Below, one piece after another: positions 6,714-25,877 of a stretch of 35,018 nucleotides of DNA (its first letter is position 1; each line of letters starts with the position of its first letter). The DNA comes from Anaerolineae bacterium (GTDB lineage: Bacteria; Chloroflexota; Anaerolineae; Promineifilales; Promineifilaceae), in contig WFSA01000141.1 in assembly GCA_015486215.1 (NCBI GenBank), forward strand, positions 1-35,018, written 5' to 3'. The notes beneath the pieces are model-generated. The model saw nothing but the letters and a program-made list of their open reading frames with translations. It ran no database searches and was not told the DNA's origin. A program made the position numbers and the translations under genes.

Positions 6714-6914
6714 TAGGGCGATTGCAACCTCGCCTTAATTCGTGATCGTGATCGGTTTCGTGATCGGTTTTTTCGATTTTCGATCACGAAACCGATCACG
6801 ACAATCATAACGTATAAATTCCCCGCAATTCACATGTTATGTCAATTGTGGAGTTGCTAAAAACGATGTAAATTTGGAATTTAACAGTGCGATTTGGAGG
6901 TTGCAATCGCCCTA
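6714..6914. mobile_element. MITE-like element, family E, copy 1 (201 bp)
   Basis: Terminal inverted repeats TAGGGCGATTGCAACC and GGTTGCAATCGCCCTA bound a core made of GATC-rich palindromes (repeated CGTGATCG/CGATCACG). The 10 bases TTGACCATTA occur on both flanks (6704-6713 and 6915-6924), a target duplication. A second copy lies at 17001-17215 and a core fragment at about 22022-22057. Non-coding. Confidence 0.82.
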
Positions 6915-8086: not shown

Positions 8087-8209
8087 GTAAATTTTTAATA
8101 TTTCAGGGTGACTACAACAGATGAAAGAAATAAACGGATGGTGCAGTCGAAAAAATAGCCGTTCATTTTCATAATCCGCTGTAGCCACCCCGAAATACTG
8201 AGAAAATAT
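8087..8209. mobile_element. MITE-like element, family C, copy 1 (about 123 bp)
   Basis: It begins GTAAATTTTTAATATTTC and ends near GAGAAAATAT, with inner arms GTGACTACAACAG and CGCTGTAGCCAC. The right flank CCTCATTC matches the left flank CGGCATTC at 6 of 8 bases. A related sequence without the insertion is visible near 25441-25460 (ATTTAATCCTCATTCCTAAT), supporting CCTCATTC as the original target. Confidence 0.65.
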
Positions 8210-9685: not shown

Positions 9686-9936
9686 GTAACTACTCAGCCC
9701 TTGTCCAAATCAACCACAAAGACACGAAGAACATAAAGTTTTGTAAGATTTTCTTTGTGATCTTTGCTTCGTAACATCTTAATATTTCGGGGTGAGTACA
9801 ACAAATTAAGAAAGGAACGTATTGCGTCAGTCGAGTCAATCTGTTCTTTTCCAAATCTGCTGTACTCATGTCCCCACTTTTTTGAGAAGATACTTTGCTT
9901 CTTTGTGGTGAAATAATTGATAGGCTGAGTAGTTAC
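9686..9936. mobile_element. MITE-like element, family F (120 bp) interrupted by a family D element
   Basis: The ends GTAACTACTCAGCC and GGCTGAGTAGTTAC are perfect inverted repeats. TATCGGTG flanks both sides exactly (9678-9685 and 9937-9944). Removing the nested D element and its duplication leaves 120 bp that can fold through arms CCACAAAGACACGAAG and CTTTGTGGT. Non-coding. Confidence 0.85.
9771..9893. mobile_element. MITE-like element, family D, copy 1 (123 bp), nested in F
   Basis: It begins GTAACATCTTAATATTTCG and ends TTTTTTGAGAAGATAC, with inner arms GAGTACAACA and GCTGTACTC. TTTGCTTC occurs exactly on both sides (9763-9770 and 9894-9901). It has the same 123-bp length as the copy at 25485-25607. 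Confidence 0.85.
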
Positions 9937-17000: not shown

Positions 17001-17215
17001 TAGGGCGATTGCAACCGCGCCTTAATTCGTGATCGTGATCGTTTTCGTGATCGAAAATCGAAAAAACTGATCACGAAACCGATCACGAAATACGATCACG
17101 ACAATCATAATGCATCAATTCCCCGCAATTCACATGTCATGTCAATTACGGATCTGCTAAAAACGGTGTAAATTTGAAATTTAACAGTGCGATTTGGAGG
17201 TTGCAATCGCCCTAT
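17001..17215. mobile_element. MITE-like element, family E, copy 2 (215 bp)
   Basis: Same terminal repeats as copy 1 (TAGGGCGATTGCAACC and its reverse complement) and the same right half, with an extra GATC unit in the core. No target duplication is visible. The left end is preceded by a duplicated TAGGGCGAT. Confidence 0.8.
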
Positions 17216-20047: not shown

Positions 20048-20272
20048 GTATCTTCTCGGTATTCTGGGGAGACTTGACAAATTTTCCTAATGATACTGTA
20101 TCTTCTCAAAATTTCGGGGAGACTTGACAGGTTTTCTATAATACTCTCGTGTAAAACGCGAGACTCTTATGAAACCTGTCAAGTCTTTGTCCCAATTTAT
20201 ACATGATACTCGTGTAAAATACAGTGCTGATGAAATTTGTCAAGTCTTGTCCACGATTTATTGAGAAGATAC
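20048..20272. mobile_element. Family A element (copy 5, 112 bp) interrupted by a family B element
   Basis: The outer ends are GTATCTTCTC and GAGAAGATAC, with the exact duplication GGGGCGAC at 20040-20047 and 20273-20280. Removing the nested B element and one copy of its own duplication leaves exactly 112 bp, the length of other A copies. Confidence 0.93.
20098..20202. mobile_element. MITE-like element, family B (105 bp), nested in A
   Basis: It begins GTATCTTCTCAAAATTTCG and ends CAATTTATAC, with inner arms CTTGACAGGTTTTC and GAAACCTGTCAAG. ATGATACT is present exactly on both sides (20090-20097 and 20203-20210) and is single in uninterrupted A copies, which proves insertion into A. Confidence 0.92.
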
Positions 20273-21837: not shown

Positions 21838-21979
21838 GTATCTTTTCAAAAAAGCGGGAAGATTATTTTGTTTTTAGTATGACTACAGCGGATTATGAAA
21901 ATGAACGGATGTTTTTTCGACTGCGCTATCCGTTTATTTCTTTCATCTGTTGTAGTCACCCGAAATATTGAAAAGTTAC
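21838..21979. mobile_element. MITE-like element, family C, copy 2 (142 bp)
   Basis: It begins GTATCTTTTC and ends GAAAAGTTAC, with inner arms GACTACAGCGG and CTGTTGTAGTC. The exact duplication CTAATTGC is at 21830-21837 and 21980-21987. The left copy contains the TAA stop of the glycosyltransferase gene. Confidence 0.92.
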
Positions 21980-22021
21980 CTAATTGCCTTGATTGCATTG
22001 GTAAAAAATTCAACAAAAAAC

Positions 22022-22057
22022 CCGATCACGAAACCGATCACGAAATACGATCACGAC
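22022..22057. repeat. Fragment of the family E core
   Basis: The GATC-rich run CCGATCACGAAACCGATC plus ACGAAATACGATCACGAC equals the core of element E copy 2. Both E ends are missing, and the fragment abuts the A/B composite element. Confidence 0.7.
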
Positions 22058-22222
22058 GTATCTTCTCAATAAATCGTGGACAAGACTTGACAGGTTTCAT
22101 AAGAGTCTCGCGTTTTACACGAGAGTATTATAGAAAACCTGTCAAGTCTCCCCGAAATTTTGAGAGGATACGAGTATCATTAGGAAAATTTGTCAAGCCT
22201 ACCCAGAATACTGAGAAGAGAC
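22058..22222. mobile_element. Composite of family B and right half of family A
   Basis: 22058-22171 has a family A left end joined to a B core (arms ACTTGACAGGTTTC and GAAAACCTGTCAAGT) and a B right end (TTTTGAGAGGATAC). 22172-22222 is the right half of an A element (GAGTATCATTAGG to GAGAAGAGAC). The left half of A is missing as a separate unit and no flanking duplication remains. Recombination between A and B arms after a nested insertion would give this structure. Confidence 0.75.
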
Positions 22223-25246: not shown

Positions 25247-25346
25247 CCTAAGGGAAAACTTGTAAATAACTGTGGCCAAGGTGACAGGCACTTGCCAAGT
25301 GCCTGTCACCTGAAAGTCCAAAGTTAAAAATGAACCTTCCCTAAGG
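25247..25346. mobile_element. Palindromic element, family K (about 100 bp)
   Basis: A near-complete hairpin. The left arm runs from GGGAAAACTTG through AAGGTGACAGGCACTTG and the right arm mirrors it through CCAAGTGCCTGTCACC to TTCCC. CCTAAGG is present at both ends (25247-25253 and 25340-25346), a possible 7-base target duplication. It is 8 bases upstream of the DUF3179 start. Partial relatives are at 7966 and 23871. Confidence 0.65.
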
Positions 25347-25476
25347 AATGAGGATTTATTTAACTACCAAAGTTGTCATTCCCGTCTTTGCAGAGCTTGC
25401 CCTCATGAAGATGGGGGAATAGCAGATGGAAGTTTCTGATTTTATTTAATCCTCATTCCTAATCAAAAACATTAAT
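25347..25476. other. Gene-free spacer with degraded REP-like sequence
   Basis: It contains a diverged CATTCCCGTCTTTGCAG...GATGGGGGAATAG palindrome and GATGGAAGTTTCTGATTTTA, which also occurs at 8053-8072 left of a family C element. No gene seen. Confidence 0.5.
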
Positions 25477-25484
25477 GTATCTTC

Positions 25485-25607
25485 GTACCTTCTCAAAAAG
25501 TTGGGGGCATGAGTACAACGGATTGGGAAAAGAACAGATTTACCTGACCGACACAATTTGCTCCTTCCTTAATTTGTTATACTTACCCCGTTTTATTGAG
25601 AAGATAC
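25485..25607. mobile_element. MITE-like element, family D, copy 2 (123 bp), nested
   Basis: It begins GTACCTTCTC and ends TTTATTGAGAAGATAC, with inner GAGTACAACGGATTGGG. It is the same length as D copy 1. TATCTTC occurs directly on both sides. Confidence 0.85.
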
Positions 25608-25748
25608 TATCTTCTTAATAAAACGGGATAATTATTTTGCTTTTAGTGTGACTACAGCAGATTATGGAAATAAACAGATGTTTTTTCGACTGCACCATCT
25701 ATTTATTTCTTTCATCTGTTGTTGTCACCCCAAAATATTGAAAAATTA

Positions 25749-25860
25749 GTATCTTCTCAGTATTCTGGGGTGACTTGACAAATTTTCCTAATGGTATTTG
25801 TGTAAAATAAAGTGCTGATGAAATTTATCAAGTCTTGTCCACGATTTATTGAGAAGATAT
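25749..25860. mobile_element. MITE-like element, family A, copy 6 (112 bp, reverse), nested
   Basis: It begins GTATCTTCTC and ends GAGAAGATAT, exactly 112 bp. The flanks AAAAATTA and CAACATTA match at 6 of 8 bases, consistent with an old target duplication. Confidence 0.85.
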
Positions 25861-25877
25861 CAACATTACACATTAAC

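Follow-up and report, generated by a model that had tools for sequence, protein, structure and literature searches.

Insertion of two MITEs into the terminal repeats of a third, and a probable IS66-type partner, in a Promineifilaceae genome

Introduction

Positions 25477–25869 of a 35,018-nucleotide stretch from an Anaerolineae bacterium (GTDB family Promineifilaceae; assembly GCA_015486215.1, contig WFSA01000141.1, positions 1 to 35,018 of the forward strand; hereafter the window) have the appearance of three short repeats set one within another. The locus raises the questions of whether two elements of types D and A have entered the two ends of an older C element, whether such ends are favoured as targets, and which transposase would move elements that carry no gene of their own. 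Taking the nest, mobilisation in trans by an IS66-type (ISBst12-like) transposase, a site preference and an attraction to ends jointly, we are quite confident that this combination describes what has happened here. Individual parts of it are held at different strengths, as described below.

Results

Structure and reconstruction of the nested locus

Read 5' to 3', the locus runs ACATTAAT, GTATCTTC, the D element, TATCTTCT...GAAAAATTA, the A element, CAACATTA, a single C and ACATTAAC, with coordinates as listed in Table 1. When D and A are cut out in silico, each with one copy of its target-site duplication (TSD), a C element of 143 bp is obtained, which is the exact length of the C family. The rebuilt element aligns end to end with the C at 21838 (86.0% identity, compared with a shuffled maximum of 57.7%), and is 83% identical to another 143-bp C copy of the same genome. 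An earlier note had claimed a triple nesting here, and had named a failure of the rebuilt C to align end to end with other copies as the point against it; the excision and the alignment to the 21838 copy bear the claim out, and the second copy that it had named, at 8087, leaves a gap of about 20 bp in the alignment, as that copy is internally deleted.

D and A occupy mirror-image sites, with the TSD of each corresponding to bases 2–9 of a C terminal repeat. The earlier description, with D lying 8 bases and A 1 base inside the ends of C, is therefore refined to one symmetric site, with A ending at 25860, and the nesting itself stands. Because a T follows the right TSD of D, one T has probably dropped out of the left copy; with this one-base shortfall and the imperfect match between the two copies flanking A, both insertions have aged. 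The locus is a C-type MITE that later received D-type and A-type MITE insertions in its two ends.

Table 1. Features of the nested locus, other element copies in the window, and complete elements with the same terminus.
Feature	Position in window	Strand	Length and remarks
Outer MITE C	25477..25869	+	143 bp without inserts (25477-25484, 25615-25748, 25869); from excision and alignment to C copies
Left TSD of C, ACATTAAT	25469..25476	.	Read directly; 7/8 match to right copy
Right TSD of C, ACATTAAC	25870..25877	.	Read directly
Nested MITE D	25485..25607	-	123 bp; complementary (80%) to the D copy at 9771-9893
Left TSD of D, TATCTTC	25478..25484	.	Terminal-repeat bases 2-8 of C; read directly
Right TSD of D, TATCTTC	25608..25614	.	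Read directly; T comes next
Nested MITE A	25749..25860	-	112 bp; 91-95% identity to other A copies in window
Left TSD of A, AAAAATTA	25741..25748	.	Bases 2-9 from right end of C; maps onto positions 135-142 of the 143-bp C
Right TSD of A, CAACATTA	25861..25868	.	6/8 match to left copy
Uninterrupted C	21838..21979	+	142 bp; TSD CTAATTGC/CTAATTGC
Shortened C copy	8087..8209	-	123 bp from its ends; TSD CGGCATTC/CCTCATTC
A element holding MITE B at its bases 63-70	20048..20272	-	Outer TSD GGGGCGAC exact
Partly deleted A::B nest	22058..22222	+	Same kind as at 20048..20272
L388		 	1,866 bp; complete element, exact 8-bp TSD AGTGACAT
L389		 	1,835 bp; frame broken, exact 8-bp TSD TGCAGATG
L384		 	1,815 bp; complete element, exact 8-bp TSD AATTTCTC

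Relative age of the three elements

The nesting shows that C is older than D and older than A. The relative age order that had been read from it thus holds for these two pairs, and leaves D and A unordered with respect to each other. At this locus the distances to the family consensus are 14.0% for C, 15.4% for D (as reverse complement) and 5.4% for A, the family medians being 5.6%, 10.6% and 1.8%, respectively; these sequence distances hint that A may be the youngest insertion.

Four abundant MITE families

The four families A, B, C and D all have the inverted terminus GTATCTTCTC, lack coding capacity and are 112–143 bp long, with main sizes of 112 bp (A), 114 bp (B), 123 bp (D) and 143 bp (C). 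Exact matches to the terminus number 1,256 in the draft genome of 4.13 Mb, and those to the reversed control pattern seven. A 1.49-Mb sample of the genome, made up of 114 sequences with the window among them, contains 377 pieces of at least 60 bp that are similar to A–D; they amount to 2.9% of the sampled DNA, and from them we extrapolate to about 1,000 such MITE pieces in the whole genome. Terminal-repeat pairs with at least seven of eight matching TSD bases number 152 in the first 1.09 Mb sampled, and none is found there when the flanking windows are moved by 20 bp, so the TSD matches are not due to chance. Short and without a gene, with terminal inverted repeats, 8-bp TSDs and ends common with autonomous elements, these are MITEs of an ordinary kind at an unusual density.

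Two A elements about 700 bp apart at L087 (2652–3570) both lie in GATAATTG, with a response-regulator-like stretch between them, an arrangement that may be due to chance or to duplication. This 919-bp A...A pair with equal TSDs was considered as a composite transposon and rejected, each A having its own complete TSD pair.

Target choice and insertion into element ends

The target profile derived from 160 insertions that do not lie in other MITEs is T-rich at -6 to -4, AT-rich within the 8 duplicated bp and A-rich at +13 to +15, with a G preceding the duplicated stretch and a C following it. The preferred site can be written as TTTnAW-G-[8 bp duplicated]-C-WTnAAA. The element terminus, G-TATCTTCT-C-AATAAA, resembles half of this site.

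The proposal in the earlier note that ends are preferred targets finds support genome-wide: seven of the 12 insertions into C or D elements are at terminal-repeat bases 2–9, and three more straddle an end. The probability of at least seven at bases 2–9 is 1.2e-10 for uniform choice and 3.4e-6 given the target profile, or 1.7e-7 and 2.4e-4, respectively, when two doubtful events are dropped; the 12 insertions are few and include the prompting window locus, and some nested pairs may copy one event. Ends are not the sole favoured targets, as the centre of A (bases 63–70, AGTATCAT) has received at least eight nested insertions, which belong to either B or C and occur in both orientations.

Local base preference alone could conceivably give the end insertions, with the ends of target elements going unrecognised by the transposase, and we regard this as possible but rather doubtful. 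The profile, built without nested sites, accounts well for several of the observed positions: it ranks A bases 63–70 first of 121, bases 2–9 fourth in A and second in B (mirror), and the observed internal C sites third and fourth. At bases 2–9 of C and D, however, the ranks are only 25th/28th of 152 and 18th/10th of 132, and the profile would place 4.5% and 10% of insertions there, against the seven of 12 seen, with the probabilities given above. Since the excess at bases 2–9 is only partly explained by the profile, the data support the ends as favoured targets. Tentatively, and a little short of thinking it probable, we suggest that an IS66-type transposase prefers the ends of resident copies beyond its base preference, and that MITEs stack at a fixed terminal-repeat position. 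Nested events number about 24 among the 206 insertions resolved (approximately 11–12%), and MITEs make up very roughly one tenth of non-ORF DNA; by this rough estimate MITEs overall are probably not over-targeted relative to other intergenic DNA, and the non-random part is the position inside the element.

It is very improbable that abutting elements arose by joining, either from end-to-end dimers in transposition or by recombination between repeats, and not by insertion. The termini common to all elements would permit recombination, and the window pair at 22058–22222 is partly deleted, but inner elements are flanked by duplicated target bases, the outermost base of C is still present outside A, the outer TSDs are intact, and other loci repeat the pattern with exact TSDs.

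A probable IS66-type partner element

By its protein relatives and kinship, the genome falls in the Chloroflexota, class Anaerolineae, close to MAGs of the Caldilineae. As an 11-mer, the terminus is present 1,221 times in the genome containing the window, and 142, 68 and 52 times in the related genomes G013, G028 and G012, respectively; among relatives of the same GTDB family it is frequent in few genomes only. At contig ends in G012, G014 and G029, it is continuous with sequence for the C-terminal portion of a transposase. A class-wide search of the Anaerolineae yielded complete IS66-family elements of about 1.8 kb bounded by the same terminus, and alignment of the ends shows that MITEs and complete elements have about 22 bp in common (GTATCTTCTCAATAATTCGGGG). 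The 8-bp TSDs of L384, L388 and L389 (Table 1) are accompanied by GTA ends. A single long ORF, with no tnpA or tnpB, spans L384 and L388 between their ends, the other ORF of L388 being on the opposite strand, and the transposases of the relatives are 553–556 aa long. The element proteins are DDE transposases of the IS66 type, with matches to Pfam PF03050 above its cut-off (E 6.3e-13 and 3.1e-11) and significant matches to NCBIfam NF033517 that fall below its curated cut-off of 180 bits (E 1.4e-34 and 7.1e-29). The single ORF, the 8-bp TSD and the end sequence point to the ISBst12 group, and to judge from these features the putative partner fits an ISBst12-like element of the IS66 family. Plasmids of Nostoc and Dolichospermum carry similar elements, which have GTATC ends and exact TSDs.

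In the genome containing the window, a C-terminal transposase remnant (L352) adjoins, and ends at, the same terminus. It is the only such transposase sequence found in this 341-contig draft, which yielded no intact gene, and an autonomous element with such ends is absent from the 1.49-Mb sample; in the draft, collapse of long repeats is possible. An IS66-type deletion derivative in G012 (L334), in which the N-terminal coding part is joined to the terminus, is an intermediate towards a MITE.

Other candidate partners were rejected. Matches to DDE_Tnp_1 (PF01609) and IS1595 (PF12762) in this and related genomes lack matching ends around them, PF03050 matches in G032 and G061 are likewise without these ends, and an IS5-like fragment adjoining a terminus in L277 is unconvincing.

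That the repeats are kept as RNA or regulatory elements (hairpins, terminators) and are not mobile DNA is scarcely credible: A does have a strong hairpin (z -6.4), but a search of the locus returned no Rfam family at gathering score, and the TSDs, empty-site logic and ends common with complete ISs identify the repeats as transposons, for which a secondary use of this kind is possible. Weak Rfam matches to microRNA models, far below gathering scores, were set aside as chance on AT-rich hairpins.

Other repeats in the same genome

Within the 1.49-Mb sample the palindrome ACGGCCGT is found 2,295 times, with about 19 expected from base composition, and it is found 57 times in the window; the next octamer palindrome occurs 119 times in the sample. 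This abundance resembles that of HIP1 of cyanobacteria, and one paper on HIPs has no mention of the octamer ACGGCCGT or of Chloroflexi. Immediately to the left of C, at 25343–25461, is a different repeat with inverted ends AAGGAATGAGGAT... (62–66 occurrences of the end in the sample, none of the reversed control), and adjoining it at 25251–25342 is another repeat family (AGGGAAAACTTGTAAAT...GAACCTTCCCT) with a perfect central hairpin and 35 matches per end in the sample. Repeats rich in CGATCACGAAACCGATCACGA are present at 6746–6801, 17033–17088 and 22003–22057, with 43 matches in the sample. Another element, which has an inner hairpin and the ends GGGTGTGTTTCAA (69 occurrences in the sample), is nested in a C and in a D element, at L104 (12281–12664) and L106 (7800–8167).

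Discussion

The insertion of D and A into the ends of C can be placed in a single scheme. All four MITE families have their ends in common with single-ORF ISBst12-like ISs and would be moved by a transposase of that type, which most likely acts in trans on whatever DNA carries these ends, yields 8-bp duplications and favours an AT-rich site. The preference for ends would come partly from the likeness of the terminus to the transposase's own target profile. As insertions at ends exceed the base-preference prediction, it is probable that ends which are bound or joined draw insertions as well, by analogy with IS30.

This is an undescribed and very dense expansion of MITEs in the Chloroflexota, now tied to an IS66-family partner, and it offers a testable target rule for the IS66 family, on whose transposition there has been little work. 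Older copies may be disabled or chained when their ends are entered, which may thus shape how MITE bursts stop, and nested loci provide a partial time order of MITE families.

Of the ISBst12 group, ISDge4 (PMC12898284) likewise has a single transposase ORF and an 8-bp duplication, and its ends GTAACTGCTCAGCA / GTGACTACTCAGCA resemble GTATCTTCTCAATA here. Its transposase is 449 aa, shorter than those of the relatives described above, and the high-copy elements here differ from it in being geneless and 112–143 bp long. In being short, geneless, intergenic and present in hundreds of copies, with inverted repeats and TSDs, they are like the bacterial MITEs Correia, ERIC and Chunjie (PMC10969869), of which ERIC reaches 711 copies in Photorhabdus. 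They differ from the MITEs reviewed there in density, with about 1,256 exact copies of the terminus across 4.1 Mb, and the text of that review mentions neither IS66 nor nested insertion.

A parallel for targeting is IS30, which chooses targets in two ways, at hot spots of sequence and at its own inverted repeats (PMC9333248). The likeness, own ends serving as insertion hot spots, is to end targeting only, and we make no claim of IS30 family membership; IS30 differs in having an unrelated transposase, a 2-bp duplication and dimer intermediates. IS4321 and IS5075, as cited in PMC5001619, insert into the terminal inverted repeats of other transposons. In that account their targets are foreign, Tn21-type ends and the enzyme is of another class, whereas the ends entered here belong to the same family group as the elements that enter them.
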